DNA of 42,718 bases, taken from contig JAQTQQ010000011.1 of NCBI GenBank assembly GCA_028712175.1, forward strand, positions 1 through 42,718. The letters run 5' to 3'. This document shows, piece by piece, positions 1 through 6,868 of this stretch (its first letter is position 1; every line of letters begins with the position of its first letter). The translations under genes were made by a program, and so were the position numbers. The notes below the pieces were generated by a model. That model was given only the letters and a program-made list of their open reading frames with translations, was not told where the DNA came from and did no database searches. Origin of the DNA: Candidatus Omnitrophota bacterium (lineage in GTDB: Bacteria; Omnitrophota; Gorgyraeia; Gygaellales; Profunditerraquicolaceae).

Positions 1-370
1 CCTGCCCCTCTTCTAATACAACTTTTTCAAAAACCTCTTTACAAAGTTTGCGTGCGCCCGCTTCTTGCGGCATGAAAATTAACCCCGTACCGTATAATCC
101 CAAACCGGGCAAATCAATCCTATTGTCTTTGGCAACTCTTCTAAAGAAATCATCCGGGGTCTGAATTAAAATACCTGCACCATCACCGGTCCTAGGATCC
201 GCTCCGCATGCCCCGCGGTGAGAAAGCCTTCTTAAGACTTCCAACCCTTGTTTTATGATTTCATTACTTTTTACACCTTTTATATTGCAGACAAACCCCA
301 CCCCGCAGGCATCATGCTCAAAACCCGGATCATATAAACCTTGTTTTTGCGGAAAATGCGTATATCTCAT
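1..370 (-). CDS. gltB: Glutamate synthase large subunit, N-terminal part (cut by window edge)
   Basis: This is the first 123 codons of a glutamate synthase large chain, the enzyme that turns glutamine plus 2-oxoglutarate into two glutamates. The visible part is the class II glutamine amidotransferase domain. The translation carries the family hallmark LYDPxxEHDACGVGFV near residues 12-27, where the Cys becomes the N-terminal nucleophile after propeptide removal, followed by LSHRGACGADPRTGDGAGI. The ATG at 368-370 overlaps the stop of the upstream fis-type gene in an ATGA overlap, so translation is probably coupled. With glnA, glnK and amtB nearby it completes the GS-GOGAT route. The rest of the gene lies outside the window, so synthase and FMN/Fe-S domains cannot be checked. 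Confidence 0.95.
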   Translation of the reverse strand, partial: MRYTHFPQKQGLYDPGFEHDACGVGFVCNIKGVKSNEIIKQGLEVLRRLSHRGACGADPRTGDGAGILIQTPDDFFRRVAKDNRIDLPGLGLYGTGLIFMPQEAGARKLCKEVFEKVVLEEGQ

Positions 371-750
371 ATTCTTGTTTTCCAATTACTTACATCAATA
401 CCCAGTTTTTTGATTTTTGCGCGCATAGTGTTGCGGTTAATGCCAAGAATCCGCGCGGCCTTAAGCTGATTGCCTTCACAGCGCTCTAGGGCCTGCTCAA
501 GCAAAGGTTTTTCTATTGCCTCTAGGACAGATTTATATAATACACCTTTCTTCTCATCAAACAAAGATCTTTGGAGCTCCACCGCCCGGTCTTTGATAAA
601 AGCCAAATCCCTGATACAATCTTTCTTTACTAAGCGAATTACATCATTATTGCCCGTATTTAGAGATAAATCATACCCTTCCTGCGCTAACATCTTAGTC
701 AAAACCTCTTTTGCTTTAATTTCATCATCAGTTATCAATATTGTAATCAT
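367..750 (-). CDS. Short NtrC-like regulator: receiver remnant plus Fis DNA-binding domain, no AAA+ domain
   Basis: A 127-residue protein. Residues 1-45 look like the first part of a response-regulator receiver (ILITDDE, then an alpha-1-like helix), but the stretch that would carry the phospho-accepting Asp is absent. Residues 70-120 match the C-terminal Fis-type helix-turn-helix of NtrC, with LLEQALERCEGNQLKAARIL followed by GINRNTMRAKIKKLGI. The central AAA+ sigma-54 activator domain is missing, so it should bind DNA but not activate sigma-54 polymerase. I chose the internal ATG at 748-750 because the conserved fold starts there and the upstream extension falls in the terminator leader. Its stop overlaps the gltB start, which suggests it regulates or reports on gltB. 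Function is inferred from domain content only. Confidence 0.8.
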   Translation of the reverse strand: MITILITDDEIKAKEVLTKMLAQEGYDLSLNTGNNDVIRLVKKDCIRDLAFIKDRAVELQRSLFDEKKGVLYKSVLEAIEKPLLEQALERCEGNQLKAARILGINRNTMRAKIKKLGIDVSNWKTRI

Positions 751-782: not shown

Positions 783-828
783 AAAAAAAACGTTCACTTT
801 GGCAGAAAATGCCCGCCATCATGAACGT
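783..828 (-). terminator. Intrinsic terminator in the fis-gltB leader
   Basis: On the minus strand ACGTTCA (828-822) pairs with TGAACGT (796-790). An inner helix is formed by GGCGG (817-813) and CTGCC (805-801). A run of eight T follows at 790-783. It lies between the promoter motif and the fis start at 750, so it must be bypassed for expression. Its 5' arm shares bases 826-823 with hairpin P2. Confidence 0.85.
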
Positions 829-869
829 CTATGTTCTATTATTTATTTTATAAGCACTACAACGTGCCT
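823..869 (-). promoter_or_regulatory. Putative ANTAR-type P1/P2 antiterminator hairpins of fis-gltB
   Basis: P1 spans 852-869 with a six-base-pair stem (AGGCAC with GTGCTT, one G-U pair) and hexaloop GTTGTA, which has G at position 4 but G rather than A at position 1. P2 spans 823-836 with GAAC pairing GTTC around hexaloop ATAGAC, matching A1 and G4. P2 uses the same GTTC that forms the 5' arm of the terminator, so the two folds exclude each other. The 15-nt linker between P1 and P2 is longer than in the sigma-gene leader. Known ANTAR targets need paired hexaloops with A1 and G4. P2 fits fully and P1 partly. Confidence 0.6.
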
Positions 870-874
870 ATATA

Positions 875-904
875 TACAAGTAAAGAAAGTACTATTTTGG
901 TAAC
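875..904 (-). promoter_or_regulatory. Two-box promoter motif GTTACCA-N13-TTTACTTGTA (copy 1, fis-gltB)
   Basis: GTTACCA occupies 904-898 and TTTACTTGTA 884-875 on the minus strand, separated by exactly 13 bases. The same boxes and spacing recur before glnA (3410-3439) and the porin-amtB-glnK unit (6102-6131), while the bases between the boxes differ. It sits about 5 bases before hairpin P1. I read it as the promoter of this unit, perhaps for the ECF-like sigma factor encoded at 6131-6655. The promoter identity is inference. Confidence 0.65.
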
Positions 905-1017: not shown

Positions 1018-3213
1018 CTACTTAATAAAAAGCATCTCGCGGTACTTAGGCAGATCCCAGGCATCATCAGAAACTACGCACTCCAGCTGATCCACATGCT
1101 TTCTAATATGCTCCATTAAAGGTTTAAGCTCGGAAAAATAAATCTCCGCCCGTTTTTCGTCGCTTGCCTTCTTGGCCTTTTCAAGCAATTTCAACATCTC
1201 TGTGGCATTCTTACGGACATAGTAAATTTTTGCCACTACGTCGCAGAGATGCTCTTTTTTGTCCTTTAATGCGTCCTGATTTACCCTAAGGCCTGCACTT
1301 TTCTTAAGCCTGAATAATTCATCTAAAGTAGAAGCAAGAAGTTTCTCGTATTTATAACCAGCCGGAACCACCGAAGCATTTACCATTTCGTTCAAGGTAT
1401 TAGCCTCAATTTCTAAGGTAAGATTATACATATGCATCCAGATATGATAACGCGCAATAAGCTCTTCTCGGGAAAAAACCCTATATTTCTCAAAAAGGAC
1501 AACATTCTCTTTTTTAGTCAAAGCCTCCAAAGACTCGTAAGTAGAGGCAACATTCGGGAGCCCGCGTTTTTTTGCCTCTTTAATCCATTCCTGCGCGTAG
1601 TTATTTCCCTCAAAACGGATAGCCTTAGTTTCTCTTACGATTTTAGAGATCACTTGCAAGACACTTGCGTTAAAATCCTTGCCTGTCGAGGTAGTTTTCC
1701 TAATCTGCTCGGAGACATAATCGAGGCTTTCGGCAATAATCGTATTAATTATCGCAATCGGAGTAGAAATATTCTGCGATGAACCTACGGCACGGAATTC
1801 AAACTTGGCCCCGGTAAATGCAAAAGGAGAGGTGCGATTCCGGTCAGTGGAATCTTTATTAAATTTAGGAAGGCGCCCAATCCCAAAATCCATGATATCA
1901 GATTTAGAGACTTTGGACTTAACCCCTTTTTCAATCATATCCAGAATCTTGGTTAATTGTTCACCCAGAAATACGCTAATAATTGCAGGAGGCGCTTCAT
2001 TAGCACCCAGCCGGTGCTCATTGCCTGCCAATGCCACAGATGCACGCAGAAGATCGCCATGCAGATAAACTGATCTTAATACGGCAGCTAAAACCGCCAG
2101 AAATTGCAGGTTATCTTCCGGAGTCTGCCCGGGATTAAGCAAATTATTGCCCTGGTTATCCGCCAACGACCAGTTCAGGTGTTTTCCGCTTCCGTTAATA
2201 CCGGCAAATGGTTTTTCATGCAAAAGACAAACCATTCCGTGCTTTAAAGCAATTTTTTTCATCAGCTCCATCAACAGCTGATTATGGTCAGCGGCAATAT
2301 TCGATTCCTCAAAAACCGGGGCAAATTCATACTGATGGGGGGCAACCTCATTGTGACGAGTCATTACCGGTATACCCAATTTATATGCCTCTTCGGCTAC
2401 TTCAAACATAAAATTAAGTACGCGTTCTTTGATCGTTCCGAAATATTGATCCTCCAATTGCTGCCCTTTAGGGCTGGGGGCCCCGACCAATGTGCGGCCG
2501 GTCATGATCAAATCCTGGCGCAGATTATAATAATTTTTGTCGATTAAGAAATATTCCTGCTCCGCTCCGCAAGTTGAGAAAACCTTTTTTACATCTTTAT
2601 GCCCGAATAATTTTAACAGGCCTATGGCCGCTCTATTTAATGCTTCATCCGAACGCAAAAGCGGTAATTTTTTATCCAATGCTTCGCCGTGATAAGAAAT
2701 AAATATTGTAGGGATACACAATGTTTTACCAAGTTTGCTTTCTACGATAAAAGCGGGGCTTGAAGGGTCCCAAGCAGTATAGCCTCGTGCTTCAAAGGTC
2801 GCGCGGATTCCGCCCGAAGGGAAGCTCGATGCGTCAGGCTCCCCCTGAATAAGCTTGTTGCCGGAAAATTTTTCGATAACTTTACCCGGCCCGGTAAGCG
2901 AAATAAAACTATCATGTTTTTCCGCGGTAAGCCCGGTCATCGGCTGGAACCAATGGGTATAATATGTAGCGCCCTTATTTATCGCCCAATCTTTCATTGC
3001 GCCGGCAATCTCATTTGCCTGGGCTAAAGAAATTGTTTTGCCTTCGGAAATCCAGGTCTTAAACGCCTCAAAGGTATTTTTCGAAATATGCTTCTGCATA
3101 GTTTCCGTACTGAAAGTATTATACCCAAAATAAGTAGAGACTTTTTTCGGTGCCTCTACCTTATCTAACGCCAAACTTTTAATGTTAAACAAAGCCCTCT
3201 GTCTTATGCTCAT
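1018..3213 (-). CDS. glnA: Glutamine synthetase type III
   Basis: ATP-dependent ligation of ammonium to glutamate. The 731-residue length and the sequence identify the large GSIII class rather than the ~450-residue GSI. Visible hallmarks are the N-terminal GSIII block with SFPSGGIRATFEARGYTAWD, the catalytic stretch EVAPHQYEFAPVFEESNIAA and the following HEKPFAGINGSGKHLNWSL. The start is the ATG at 3211-3213 because it follows a strong AGGGAGGA ribosome site. A longer open frame upstream runs through the leader hairpins and is rejected. It has its own leader, a two-box promoter motif and a terminator. It lies between glnK upstream and the fis-gltB pair downstream. Confidence 0.95.
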   Translation of the reverse strand: MSIRQRALFNIKSLALDKVEAPKKVSTYFGYNTFSTETMQKHISKNTFEAFKTWISEGKTISLAQANEIAGAMKDWAINKGATYYTHWFQPMTGLTAEKHDSFISLTGPGKVIEKFSGNKLIQGEPDASSFPSGGIRATFEARGYTAWDPSSPAFIVESKLGKTLCIPTIFISYHGEALDKKLPLLRSDEALNRAAIGLLKLFGHKDVKKVFSTCGAEQEYFLIDKNYYNLRQDLIMTGRTLVGAPSPKGQQLEDQYFGTIKERVLNFMFEVAEEAYKLGIPVMTRHNEVAPHQYEFAPVFEESNIAADHNQLLMELMKKIALKHGMVCLLHEKPFAGINGSGKHLNWSLADNQGNNLLNPGQTPEDNLQFLAVLAAVLRSVYLHGDLLRASVALAGNEHRLGANEAPPAIISVFLGEQLTKILDMIEKGVKSKVSKSDIMDFGIGRLPKFNKDSTDRNRTSPFAFTGAKFEFRAVGSSQNISTPIAIINTIIAESLDYVSEQIRKTTSTGKDFNASVLQVISKIVRETKAIRFEGNNYAQEWIKEAKKRGLPNVASTYESLEALTKKENVVLFEKYRVFSREELIARYHIWMHMYNLTLEIEANTLNEMVNASVVPAGYKYEKLLASTLDELFRLKKSAGLRVNQDALKDKKEHLCDVVAKIYYVRKNATEMLKLLEKAKKASDEKRAEIYFSELKPLMEHIRKHVDQLECVVSDDAWDLPKYREMLFIK

Positions 3214-3409: not shown

Positions 3410-3439
3410 TACAAGTAAAGAACCCGGGATTCTGGTAAC
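3410..3439 (-). promoter_or_regulatory. Two-box promoter motif GTTACCA-N13-TTTACTTGTA (copy 2, glnA)
   Basis: GTTACCA at 3439-3433 and TTTACTTGTA at 3419-3410 have 13 bases between them, identical boxes and spacing to the copies before fis-gltB and porin-amtB-glnK. It lies downstream of the glnK stop, 196 bases before the glnA start, and precedes the leader terminator. Confidence 0.65.
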
Positions 3440-3480: not shown

Positions 3481-3819
3481 TTATACGGCGTTATCCCCGT
3501 TTTCTCCCGTACGTATCCTTATAGCGTCTTCAACTGGATAAACAAATATTTTTCCGTCACCTATCTCCCCGGTTTTAGCGCTGTCAATAATGACTTTACT
3601 GATGCGCTTAAGATCTTCATCTTTAACAATAATCTCTATTTTGGTTTTTGGCAGCAGTTCAACTTTATACTTCTCACCCCTCCATTGCTGGACAACACCT
3701 TTTTGCTTACCGTGGCCTTCAATCCCGGAGATCATAATTCCGGTAACGCCTGCCAGACTGAGGGCATTACGGACACAATCAACGCTTTCGGGCCTTATGA
3801 TAGCTTCGATTTTCTTCAT
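3481..3819 (-). CDS. glnK: P-II nitrogen regulatory protein
   Basis: A 112-residue P-II signal protein that reads 2-oxoglutarate, ATP/ADP and often covalent state, and controls AmtB and other nitrogen targets. It begins MKKIEAIIRPE, and the T-loop KQKGVVQQWRGEKYKVELLPK carries Tyr51, the usual uridylylation site. Position 46 is Trp instead of the common Tyr. The B-loop and C-terminal region (TGEIGDGKIFVYPVEDAIRIRTGE) are intact. The start follows the amtB stop by 23 bases, and amtB-glnK pairing is the classic arrangement. It belongs to the porin-amtB-glnK unit. Confidence 0.95.
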   Translation of the reverse strand: MKKIEAIIRPESVDCVRNALSLAGVTGIMISGIEGHGKQKGVVQQWRGEKYKVELLPKTKIEIIVKDEDLKRISKVIIDSAKTGEIGDGKIFVYPVEDAIRIRTGENGDNAV

Positions 3820-3842: not shown

Positions 3843-5165
3843 TTATTCACCCTTAATGTCAATAAATGTATAAGCCGGTTTCCTGCCATAAAATTCAGGA
3901 TACGCGGAATTGCCGTGTTCACCGATATCAAGCCCCTCGATTTCCTCTTTTAGGGAAACCCTAATACCCATTGTGTATTTAAGTCCAAGCCAGAAAACAA
4001 GAGAAATCAAAAAGGTAAATACTCCTACTCCCAAAACACCGTATAGCTGAGCGATTAAAAGTTTTGTTCCTCCTCCATAGAACAAACCACTTCCGCTAGC
4101 GATCCCGGCTATCTTATCTTGCGAAAATAACCCCACGCAAACCGTACCAAAAACGCCGTTTACTAAATGCACTGAAAGCGCTCCCACAGGATCATCAAGC
4201 CTCAGCCTGTCAAACATAATAACAGCTAAAACAACGAGCATCCCGGCGGCAAAACCGATAATAAGCGAACTAGGAACACTTACAAAAGCACAAGATGCTG
4301 TTATGGCCACTAACCCGGCCAAACAGCCGTTCAAAGTCATGCCTAGATCCGGTTTACCTAACAATGCCCATGACAATAACGTAGCGCTAATAGTTGCCAT
4401 GGCTGCAGCCATGTTGGTAGTAATAGCAACATGGCTGATAGCTACAGGATCGGCCGACATTGTGGATCCGGGATTAAATCCGAACCATCCAAACCAAAGC
4501 ACAAAAGTTCCCAAGGTTGCCATTGATAAATTATGACCGGGAATTGGATTAACCCTTCTATTTACGTATTTCCCAAAACGCGGACCCAAGACCATAATAC
4601 CGGCCAAGGCCGCCCATCCTCCTACCGAATGCACAACAGTTGAGCCGGCGAAATCAAACATGCCTTTTAACTGCAGCCACCCTCCTCCCCAAATCCAATG
4701 GCCTACTATGGGATAAATAAACATAGCCATAATAAAGGAAAAAACTATGAATGAACCATACTTAATACGTTCAGCCACAGCACCCGAAACAATAGTAGCG
4801 GCTGTTCCACAGAAAACCAGCTGAAAGAAGAATTTTGCCCACATCGGAACCCCTGTCCAGGAAAGAGCGGAATAAACGCCTTTATAAGCTTCGCCGGTTG
4901 CCGGAGAATTATCTAAACCGCTGGCGAAGAAAAGCCCTTTTAAACCGATTAAAGGATTTCCATCTCCAAACATAAACCCCCAGCCAAGAAACAAAAAACC
5001 CAATGAAGATACCGCAAAAACCACGAAATTCTTAGAAAGAATATTTACGCAGTTTTTTGAACGGGCAAACCCTGATTCAACCATAGCAAAACCCAAGTTC
5101 ATGAAGAATACCATTTTTGCGGTTATTAAAACCCAAATTGTATCGATGATCACCTTCATATCCAT
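3843..5165 (-). CDS. amtB: Ammonium transporter
   Basis: A 440-residue inner-membrane Amt/MEP/Rh channel with about eleven transmembrane segments. Family motifs include GFAMVESGFARSKN near the N-terminus, the twin pore histidines in VVHSVGGWAALAG and SVHLVNGVFGT, and FVLWFGWFGFNPGS. The cytoplasmic tail EEIEGLDIGEHGNSAYPEFY is the stretch that meets P-II. There is no N-terminal signal peptide, as in many Amt proteins outside the proteobacteria. It starts 10 bases after the outer-membrane protein stop and is followed by glnK. Confidence 0.95.
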   Translation of the reverse strand: MDMKVIIDTIWVLITAKMVFFMNLGFAMVESGFARSKNCVNILSKNFVVFAVSSLGFLFLGWGFMFGDGNPLIGLKGLFFASGLDNSPATGEAYKGVYSALSWTGVPMWAKFFFQLVFCGTAATIVSGAVAERIKYGSFIVFSFIMAMFIYPIVGHWIWGGGWLQLKGMFDFAGSTVVHSVGGWAALAGIMVLGPRFGKYVNRRVNPIPGHNLSMATLGTFVLWFGWFGFNPGSTMSADPVAISHVAITTNMAAAMATISATLLSWALLGKPDLGMTLNGCLAGLVAITASCAFVSVPSSLIIGFAAGMLVVLAVIMFDRLRLDDPVGALSVHLVNGVFGTVCVGLFSQDKIAGIASGSGLFYGGGTKLLIAQLYGVLGVGVFTFLISLVFWLGLKYTMGIRVSLKEEIEGLDIGEHGNSAYPEFYGRKPAYTFIDIKGE

Positions 5166-5175
5166 AGCTGCCTCC

Positions 5176-5979
5176 TTAGAAATTAATATCTATTTGAAAT
5201 GTGACCGTATCGGTTAAGTTGCGATTATTGTAAATGTCATAGGCAACAAGCGCTGAGATATCCTTAGTAAAGCTCCAGGCAAAACCGGCGTTTAATGCTC
5301 CATAAGAAGACTGCGTCCCCTGATAATCAACGCATAGCCATAATTTTGGGCTTATCTCTGTCATAACGCGTTCCCAGGCTATCAGCGCCCCGGAGTTATC
5401 CCGCAGCCCTTCTTTATCCCGTAGCAATTTTCCATTCCCCACAAAATAGCCTCCTGAAACTCTTCCTAAATTGACCTTACCTATATTAACTGTCTTAGCA
5501 ACCCTGCCATACCAGAGGTTATAATTAGTCCTATTGGCCCTCGTACCCATGTCATAGGAACCCACGGCGACAGCAGGCATATACTTAAAATAAGCGTCCT
5601 CAGGTACGCCGAATTTAAAATTAAAATACCAGGGAGTTGAATCATAAAAAGAACCAAACCCTTTCTTATAATCAAAACCACTCTCTGCCATAACCTTCCC
5701 CAACGGCTTCCAAAACCTGCCTAAAAGGTTCTCTTCGGGATTATCCGATAATAAACTAAAAGTGAGCCCATAAACTTGCTGGACATAATTATGTTGATCA
5801 TAATTATCAACGCTGGTCCCCTTGGAAGTAGTGGGAGCATAAATATCCACCCCCACATGGATCCTTTTATATGGCTGGATATCTGTTGACGGCGCCCAGA
5901 TAAGCGTGGAAGGAGTAGCATATGCATTTGATAGAAAAAAGGTATAGCAAACCGCTAAAATCAATCCTAATCGTTTCAC
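5176..5979 (-). CDS. Outer-membrane beta-barrel protein of the ammonium-uptake unit
   Basis: A 267-residue exported protein. Residues 1-21 form a Sec signal peptide (MKRLGLILAVC...SNAYA). The rest alternates polar and hydrophobic residues with many aromatic girdle positions, and the chain ends in Phe, the usual barrel-assembly signal. I do not recognise a named family. The GTG start at 5977-5979 is chosen for the AAGGAG site 8 bases upstream and the signal peptide. As first gene before amtB and glnK it may be the outer-membrane entry for ammonium or amines, but this rests on context. Its leader carries a two-box promoter motif, hairpins and a terminator. Confidence 0.7.
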   Translation of the reverse strand: MKRLGLILAVCYTFFLSNAYATPSTLIWAPSTDIQPYKRIHVGVDIYAPTTSKGTSVDNYDQHNYVQQVYGLTFSLLSDNPEENLLGRFWKPLGKVMAESGFDYKKGFGSFYDSTPWYFNFKFGVPEDAYFKYMPAVAVGSYDMGTRANRTNYNLWYGRVAKTVNIGKVNLGRVSGGYFVGNGKLLRDKEGLRDNSGALIAWERVMTEISPKLWLCVDYQGTQSSYGALNAGFAWSFTKDISALVAYDIYNNRNLTDTVTFQIDINF

Positions 5980-6033: not shown

Positions 6034-6063
6034 AAAAAAATAGCGCTCTATTTCTAGAACGCT
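6034..6063 (-). terminator. Intrinsic terminator in the porin-amtB-glnK leader
   Basis: AGCGTTCTA (6063-6055) and TAGAGCGCT (6050-6042) form nine base pairs (one G-U) closed by a GAAA tetraloop. An A and seven T follow at 6041-6034. It lies 55 bases before the porin start and is strong enough to block the operon unless bypassed. Confidence 0.9.
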
Positions 6064-6091
6064 GATGTTTAAATCTTACACTTCAATGTGT
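6055..6091 (-). promoter_or_regulatory. Putative ANTAR-type P1/P2 hairpins of porin-amtB-glnK
   Basis: P1 (6078-6091) is ACAC-ATTGAA-GTGT, a hexaloop with A1 and G4. P2 is weaker: AAC (6069-6067), hexaloop ATCAGC (6066-6061) and GTT (6060-6058), extendable past a bulged C at 6057. Its loop has A1 but A at position 4. The P2 3' arm GTTCTA lies inside the 5' arm of the terminator, so the two are exclusive. The core AACAT....GTTC resembles P2 of the gltB leader. Confidence 0.5.
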
Positions 6092-6101
6092 TTTACACCA
6101 T

Positions 6102-6131
6102 TACAAGTAAAAAATATCTCAGCCTGGTAAC
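6102..6131 (-). promoter_or_regulatory. Two-box promoter motif GTTACCA-N13-TTTACTTGTA (copy 3, porin-amtB-glnK)
   Basis: GTTACCA at 6131-6125 and TTTACTTGTA at 6111-6102 with 13 bases between. The first base of the motif is the last base of the sigma-gene stop codon, so the promoter is directly abutted to that gene. It is followed by P1, P2 and the terminator. Confidence 0.65.
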
Positions 6132-6669: not shown

Positions 6670-6719
6670 AAAACAAAAACGTCCCCACCCCTTTAAAAGG
6701 GTAAAGGACGCCTTAGTCC
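6670..6719 (-). terminator. Second terminator-like hairpin just before the sigma gene
   Basis: CGTCCTT (6710-6704) pairs with GGGGACG (6686-6680), then two mismatches, then CCCTT with AAGGG, followed by TTTTTGTTTT (6679-6670). It ends just before the ribosome site. A hairpin GGAC-TAAGGC-GTCC (6719-6706), with a hexaloop having G4 but T1, overlaps its 5' arm, echoing the upstream P2/terminator pair. Confidence 0.6.
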
Positions 6720-6767
6720 AAATAACTCCGCAAGAAATAACTTATGCGGATTCGCCAGATTATGGCG

Positions 6768-6804
6768 AAAAAAAAGCCTTCCGGCAAAATAATCGCCAGA
6801 AGAC
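6768..6804 (-). terminator. Intrinsic terminator T1 in the sigma-factor leader
   Basis: GTCTTCTGGC (6804-6795) pairs with GCCGGAAGGC (6785-6776) over ten base pairs, two of them G-U. The loop is nine bases and eight T follow at 6775-6768. It sits about 60 bases after the promoter and 113 bases before the gene. Confidence 0.92.
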
Positions 6805-6832
6805 TTCTATGTCTTTACTACAACGCTGTAAT
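6800..6832 (-). promoter_or_regulatory. Dual-hexaloop ANTAR-type antiterminator (P1 and P2) of the sigma gene
   Basis: P1 (6832-6817) is ATTAC-AGCGTT-GTAGT. P2 (6815-6800) is AAGAC-ATAGAA-GTCTT. Both have five-base-pair stems and six-base loops with A at position 1 and G at position 4, and one base separates them. The P2 3' arm GTCTT is also the start of the terminator 5' arm, so P2 and terminator exclude each other. That is the layout of RNA sites bound by ANTAR proteins such as EutV and NasR. The GAF-ANTAR gene is immediately upstream. No function has been tested here. Confidence 0.85.
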
Positions 6833-6840
6833 CTGTTAAA

Positions 6841-6868
6841 AGTATACCATAACTCCAGCTGCTGTCAA
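6841..6868 (-). promoter_or_regulatory. Housekeeping promoter of the sigma gene
   Basis: TTGACA (6868-6863), a 16-base spacer and TATACT (6846-6841). It begins 13 bases after the GAF-ANTAR stop. Transcription should start near 6834, just ahead of hairpin P1. Confidence 0.88.

Follow-up and report, generated by a model that had tools for sequence, protein, structure and literature searches.

Antitermination is known to control nitrogen genes in Geobacter, where the regulator is GnfR. The closest described relative of the locus reported here is the EutV/eutP system of Enterococcus faecalis, in which two hairpins with A at position 1 and G at position 4 of a hexanucleotide loop (A1 and G4) are arranged so that the second hairpin, P2, overlaps an intrinsic terminator, with an ANTAR gene nearby and nitrogen-related targets (PMC3369931, PMC8934654). 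EutV needs both P1 and P2, an A1 to U exchange lowers induction, and the linkers in the E. faecalis eut genes measure 5–12 nt, while a 3-nt linker failed (PMC3369931). In the EutV-RNA structure, Tyr164 stacks on G4, and A1 is without protein contact (PMC8934654). Regulons with many ANTAR elements on amtB, PII, glutamine/glutamate synthase or nitrogenase genes were described for Pelobacter carbinolicus and for Desulfotomaculum acetoxidans, the latter with 13 elements in six units (PMC3369931). Walshe et al. 2022 regarded a single hexaloop with a contacted G4 as the minimal ANTAR binding motif and suggested it for settings without a transcription time limit (PMC8934654).

The locus described below resembles these systems in its hexaloops, its terminators and its nitrogen-related genes. 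It differs from EutV/eutP in that a GAF domain replaces the phosphorylated receiver, a single-hexaloop switch follows the dual one, and the target is a sigma-factor gene. For the D. acetoxidans and P. carbinolicus regulons, no dedicated sigma factor or common promoter motif was described, and their elements were defined as dual hairpins; the single hexaloops reported here sit on terminators, in contrast to the settings suggested by Walshe et al. Multi-element ANTAR nitrogen regulons (PMC3369931) and the proposed single-hexaloop binding (PMC8934654) are thus already known. Our literature search found no description of an ANTAR or ECF sigma nitrogen regulon in Omnitrophota, nor of the sigma-factor layer, the promoter motif or tandem dual-plus-single hexaloop terminators.

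The nitrogen locus and its GAF-ANTAR protein

The window, a stretch of 42,718 nucleotides from a Candidatus Omnitrophota bacterium, carries on its minus strand, in this order, a GAF-ANTAR gene, a leader, a sigma-factor gene, a gene for a 267-aa protein, amtB, glnK, glnN, a further leader, a gene for a Fis-like protein and gltB, which begins at 370 and continues beyond the window edge (Table 1). The likely start of glnN is the ATG at 3213. Family searches with the 267-aa protein gave no match; guessing from its sequence, it is a probable outer-membrane/beta protein (OMP in the following).

Table 1. Features of the nitrogen locus, in the order of transcription
Feature	Position	Strand	Evidence or remark
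GAF-ANTAR gene, 240 aa	6881..7603	minus	probable antiterminator protein; Pfam
Sigma-70 type promoter TTGACA-N16-TATACT	6841..6868	minus	11/12 consensus bases
P1 hairpin ATTAC-AGCGTT-GTAGT	6817..6832	minus	sequence and covariation
P2 hairpin AAGAC-ATAGAA-GTCTT	6800..6815	minus	3' arm common to T1
Intrinsic terminator T1, 10-bp stem and eight T	6768..6804	minus	fold; consensus stem with covariation
Second switch E2, GGAC-TAAGGC-GTCC (6719-6706) overlapping terminator T2	6673..6723	minus	model R2, covariation
Sigma-70-type (ECF-like) sigma factor, 174 aa	6131..6655	minus	NCBIfam, Pfam in relatives, PDB fold
GTTACC-N16-TACTTGTA before OMP/amtB/glnK	6102..6131	minus	0 mismatches; candidate sigma promoter
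Third switch, P1 ACAC-ATTGAA-GTGT, P2-like AAC-ATCAGC-GTT, terminator	6034..6091	minus	sequence, fold
267-aa protein (OMP)	5176..5979	minus	syntenic in relatives
amtB ammonium transporter	3843..5165	minus	Pfam, 400 bits
glnK / PII	3481..3819	minus	Pfam, 101 bits
GTTACC-N16-TACTTGTA before glnN	3410..3439	minus	motif search
glnN type III glutamine synthetase	1018..3213	minus	Pfam GSIII_N, 252 bits
GTTACC-N16-TACTTGTA before fis-like/gltB	875..904	minus	motif search
Fourth switch, P1 GCAC-GTTGTA-GTGC (867-854), P2 GAAC-ATAGAC-GTTC (836-823), terminator	783..867	minus	fold
Fis-like HTH protein	370..750	minus	Pfam HTH_8

Nearly all relatives recovered by aligning the sigma protein were Candidatus Omnitrophota MAGs. 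The family set comprised 107 genomes; the genomes compared are nearly all MAGs, and each was counted as independent. A second contig of the same assembly (C12, L003, 9.7 kb) displays the order pstB-phoU-nadE-asnC-aminotransferase-ANTAR-sigma-OMP-amtB-glnK as in the window, with a protein identity of about 80–95%. Given the synteny at this identity, which includes nadE, phoU and pstB, we rejected a paralogous copy; the contig probably belongs to a related strain that was binned together, rather than being a true duplication, and was used solely as a homologue.

The protein encoded directly upstream of the sigma leader scores 82 bits with GAF_2 and 61 bits with ANTAR (PF03861, cut-off 27.3), and therefore qualifies as an ANTAR-domain protein. 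In an alignment with EutV (6wsh; residue numbers follow PMC8934654, the 6wsh chain numbering is 2 higher), the equivalents of R142, K143, E146, K149, Y164 and M172 are retained, among them the tyrosine that corresponds to Y164 and the methionine plug. At three further contact positions we found substitutions (K147 to R, E160 to P, R168 to Q). Some loci (L168-L176, e.g. L169:1884-2669) encode a second, higher-scoring type of GAF-ANTAR protein (77–82 bits) behind a hexaloop-terminator leader of its own, AGAAC-GATGGC-GTTCT, which suggests that this type may be autoregulated.

Two hexaloop switches in front of the sigma gene

The sequence-only reading had described a promoter, P1, one base, P2 and a 10-bp terminator with eight T at 6868-6768 of the minus strand. 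All of these parts are present, and A1 and G4 can indeed be read in both hexaloops. The promoter is the best match of the region and is retained in relatives. The two stems of this element (E1) have 5 bp each and the loops 6 nt, as in dual-hexaloop ANTAR RNAs, for which stems of at least 3 bp and hexanucleotide loops are expected; likewise, P2 overlaps an intrinsic terminator, its GTCTT being the start of the 5' arm of T1 (stem 6804-6776, T run 6775-6768). The linker is 1 nt in the window, with 5-bp stems, and 1–5 nt in relatives, to be compared with a range of 5–12 nt in E. faecalis eut, where every linker is longer than 1 nt, and of 2–25 nt in actinobacteria. RNAfold gave T1 a folding energy of -26.8 kcal/mol (z -5.0), which 0 of 200 shuffles equalled. 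The isolated P1 and P2 piece folded into two hairpins at the expected places (-7.0), with the P1 loop narrowed by the program to four bases.

The conservation of E1 carries most of the weight. Among 29 aligned leaders of relatives, P1 displays two-sided compensatory changes at four of its five pairs, and the P2 stem is unchanging at four of five. The loop bases differ between relatives, with A1 and G4 mostly retained (each in 26 of the 29 P2 loops). In a covariance-model search, model R3, built from 13 leaders that all come from other genera, matched exactly E1 (6838-6770, 60.4 bits, E 6.4e-15, model E-values being rough), with a runner-up at 13.6 bits. A model that includes the genus found E1 in 59 of the 107 family genomes, and its strong matches lie mostly upstream of the sigma gene. 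No Rfam family, riboswitches included, was matched at gathering score.

We class E1 among the dual-hexaloop ANTAR RNAs, for which its linker is unusually short. An ANTAR antiterminator in front of a sigma gene, as originally proposed, is borne out by the R3 match, the GAF-ANTAR gene directly upstream, the conservation in the family and the compensatory changes in P1. The label "textbook" overstates the case, given the 1-nt linker and the loss of P1 in several distant leaders. The same leaders bear on another point: hexaloops lost from leaders that keep the terminator had been named as evidence against the proposal, and this was found in part, with P1 absent or degenerate and P2 and T1 retained. 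"EutV-type" is adequate for the RNA switch but not for the signalling, as the regulator has a GAF and no response-regulator domain. Finally, a single antiterminator is an incomplete picture, since E1 is real but is accompanied by further switches at 6723-6673, 6091-6034 and 867-783.

The first of these, E2, is associated with a terminator, T2, at about 6714-6669 between T1 and the sigma start (fold z -4.3). An upstream GGAC is able to pair with the GTCC of the 5' arm of T2, which results in a GGAC-UAAGGC-GUCC hexaloop. Its loop starts with U and has G4, and there is no P1 partner; E2 is therefore ANTAR-like and not a member of the dual-hexaloop class. Model R2 matched E2 with 50 bits and also picked up P2/T1 of E1 (E 0.0008), although the training sets of R1 and R2 partly contain the sequences they retrieve. 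E2 is kept family-wide. In 42 leaders, 90% of the cells of its helix are paired, compared with 39–47% when the helix is slid, and there are 10 two-sided changes versus 4.1 in shuffles.

It could be argued that only E1 is an ANTAR element, and that T2 is an ordinary safety terminator with an incidental hexaloop. E2 has no P1 and carries U where EutV needs A (PMC3369931), and the conservation of its loop could partly stem from the terminator, because the AAGGC bases also pair within T2. However, the GGAC arm is conserved and covaries with GTCC, although it is not part of the predicted T2 stem. Beyond the training set, both stem arms change jointly around the same class of loop (L250, AAGCAC-TTAGGC-GTGCTT; L264, GGAAC-TATGGC-GTTCC), and the cross-detection of P2/T1 by the E2 model links the two elements. 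Single-hexaloop terminators like E2 also occur in the leaders of the second ANTAR type and of amtB, after sigma, and before gltB, and they track ANTAR genes: they were found in 73 of 91 genomes with an ANTAR gene versus 4 of 16 without (p=3e-5), and among sigma-less genomes in 16 of 29 versus 0 of 12 (p=0.001), both values ignoring kinship and MAG incompleteness. We therefore consider the safety-terminator explanation rather unlikely, and favor E2 as a second ANTAR-type switch.

A REP-like repeat hairpin at 6723-6673 was also considered and dropped, because the distinctive part of this hairpin, GGGGACGTTTTTG, is found only once in the window, and because the related hairpins are located in leaders of nitrogen genes. 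In another group of Omnitrophota, the pre-sigma leaders (L244, L246, L251, L256, L262, L267, L270, L271) carry AAGGAC-NNNGNN-GCCCTT-like hairpins before terminators, several of them with an A-C mismatch; these may represent yet another form of the hexaloop switch.

The sigma factor and a shared motif upstream of nitrogen genes

The gene behind both switches encodes a two-domain, sigma-70-type, ECF-like sigma factor. The protein scores 43.4 bits with NCBIfam sigma70-ECF, just above the cut-off of 42.9. With Pfam the window protein itself stays below the cut-off, but among 25 relatives region 2 was recognized in 18 and region 4 in 12. Its fold matches in the PDB are sigma factors, with low TM-scores across both domains. 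The presence of regions 2 and 4, the absence of region 3 and the sigma fold are what is expected of an ECF-type factor and are shared with SigL, AlgU and sigmaE, as is a candidate bipartite promoter with fixed spacing. Unlike in those systems, no anti-sigma gene was recognized beside the sigma gene, and control would be exerted by antitermination of the sigma gene itself.

The candidate promoter is GTTACC-N16-TACTTGTA. It is present in three copies in the window, a number reached in 0 of 100 shuffles even when two mismatches were allowed. Relatives show strong conservation in the gap behind the sigma gene; this gap opens with GTTACCA...TTACTTGTA. In the 107 family genomes, we found 161 exact copies as opposed to 2 of the reversed pattern. 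The motif and the sigma gene occur together in 64 of these genomes and are both missing in 34, with 2 + 7 discordant cases (p=1e-18, kinship and MAG incompleteness ignored); the two are also associated in the remainder of the phylum (p=2e-6, kinship ignored). Outside the family, the exact motif is missing from many sigma-bearing genomes, which is what drifting boxes would lead one to expect. Seven genomes carry the motif but lack a complete sigma gene.

The distribution of the motif is a correlation, and since regulators of the Lrp/AsnC type and a Fis-like protein are encoded nearby, the motif might be the binding site of an activator or repressor instead of a promoter of the 174-aa sigma protein. 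This we judge unlikely. The motif consists of two dissimilar half-sites with a fixed spacing, exactly 16 in 120 of 139 loose matches, and it precedes the first hexaloop of the leader by a median of 23 nt, just as -35 and -10 boxes would. Moreover, it tracks the sigma gene, and it adjoins sigma remnants in G075 and G095, the former being one of the seven genomes mentioned above. Judging from these sequence patterns, the sigma factor probably reads GTTACC-N16-TACTTGTA promoters. In genomes of the Syntrophus/Syntrophorhabdus type (L266, L268, L269, L272, L276, L277), the sigma homologue directly follows the end of a nadE-like gene, with neither such a leader nor the exact promoter motif; these genomes may use a different promoter.

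The genes downstream of the motif are mostly amtB, glnK, glnN, OMP and fis/gltB, and their leaders contain hexaloops as well. An AC-NNNGNN-GT hexaloop follows within 150 nt in 104 of 120 distinct copies of the motif, compared with 0.9% in shuffles, and the enrichment is strongest for a loop size of 6. In 164 such AC..GT-closed hexaloops, G4 is found in 98% and A1 in 62%. In the window, the P2-like loop of the third switch has lost the G4 that is retained in relatives, and the fourth switch folds with -33.7 kcal/mol (z -6.3) and is matched by R2 at 840-784. The glnN leader (3391-3344, minus) has a hexaloop, GAAC-AGGGGC-GTTC in relatives, that is interrupted by an insert of ~48 bp with inverted repeats CGTCCGCCACT...AGTGGACGG. 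Elsewhere in the window, a long inverted repeat (AAAATGGGGTCAGAATTATTTT..., 23551-23480, minus) that is also present upstream of the L020 sigma leader looks like a dispersed repeat family.

With loop position 1 looser than in known ANTAR targets, one might propose that another RNA-binding protein or ligand, for example a glutamine-sensing RNA, acts on the hexaloops, and that their linkage to ANTAR genes is coincidental. A relaxed A1 with a fixed G4 fits ANTAR binding, however, because it is G4 on which Tyr164 of EutV stacks, whereas A1 is uncontacted (PMC8934654). The loop size and the closing AC/GT complete an ANTAR signature, ANTAR genes adjoin the elements and are themselves preceded by hexaloop-terminators, and no riboswitch family was matched, so that we regard this explanation as very improbable. 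That P1, P2 and the terminator are a chance arrangement is refuted: the bare pattern of two A1/G4 hexaloops and a T-run is common in shuffled windows under lenient settings (0.26 per window, in 21 of 100), but E1 stands above chance by its covarying conservation in dozens of genomes and by its match to the genus-independent model R3.

A possible two-layer circuit for nitrogen control

As judged from the sequence features and their conservation, covariation, linkage and co-occurrence, the binding of the protein, the direction of the switches, the recognition of the motif by the sigma factor and the signal would fit together as follows. The GAF-ANTAR protein would be a nitrogen-responsive antiterminator, with 2-oxoglutarate or another nitrogen signal perhaps sensed via GAF. 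When it is inactive, transcripts from the promoter at 6868 would halt at T1 and escapees at T2, and little sigma factor would be made. The active protein would bind the hexaloops in the order of their emergence, P1 and P2 first and last the single hexaloop before T2, which we infer to act by antitermination; by holding the 5' arms of the terminators, the protein would permit the polymerase to reach the ECF-like sigma gene. The sigma factor would then initiate at GTTACC-N16-TACTTGTA before OMP/amtB/glnK, glnN and fis/gltB. Since the leaders of these genes also start with ANTAR-type hexaloops over terminators, their expression would require both the sigma factor and active ANTAR protein, i.e. 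a coherent feed-forward (AND) circuit.

We consider it fairly probable that such a two-layer circuit operates here, in which GAF-ANTAR antitermination controls the sigma gene and the sigma factor controls nitrogen operons with ANTAR-type switches of their own. Several points speak against it: E2 is without P1 and has mostly U1, unlike the need of EutV for P1 and P2 (PMC3369931), the E1 linker is only 1 nt, P2 of the third switch is without G4, and the glnN switch is interrupted. A broader proposal extends to Omnitrophota and a few Elusimicrobia- or proteobacteria-labelled genomes. There, a dedicated ECF-like sigma factor acting on GTTACC-N16-TACTTGTA would run nitrogen assimilation, and an ANTAR attenuator would be joined to most of its promoters. 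Control of the sigma gene would fall to the same GAF-ANTAR protein, acting on a dual and a single hexaloop terminator in tandem, so that a single hexaloop with a free position 1 would suffice for antitermination. To this wider statement we attach even confidence for and against.

The locus raises the question of whether one ANTAR hexaloop can drive antitermination, for which the EutV data argue in the negative as far as EutV is concerned. For an uncultured phylum, it provides a concrete and testable nitrogen-control circuit, including a sigma factor for which a promoter with 14 fixed bases is predicted.
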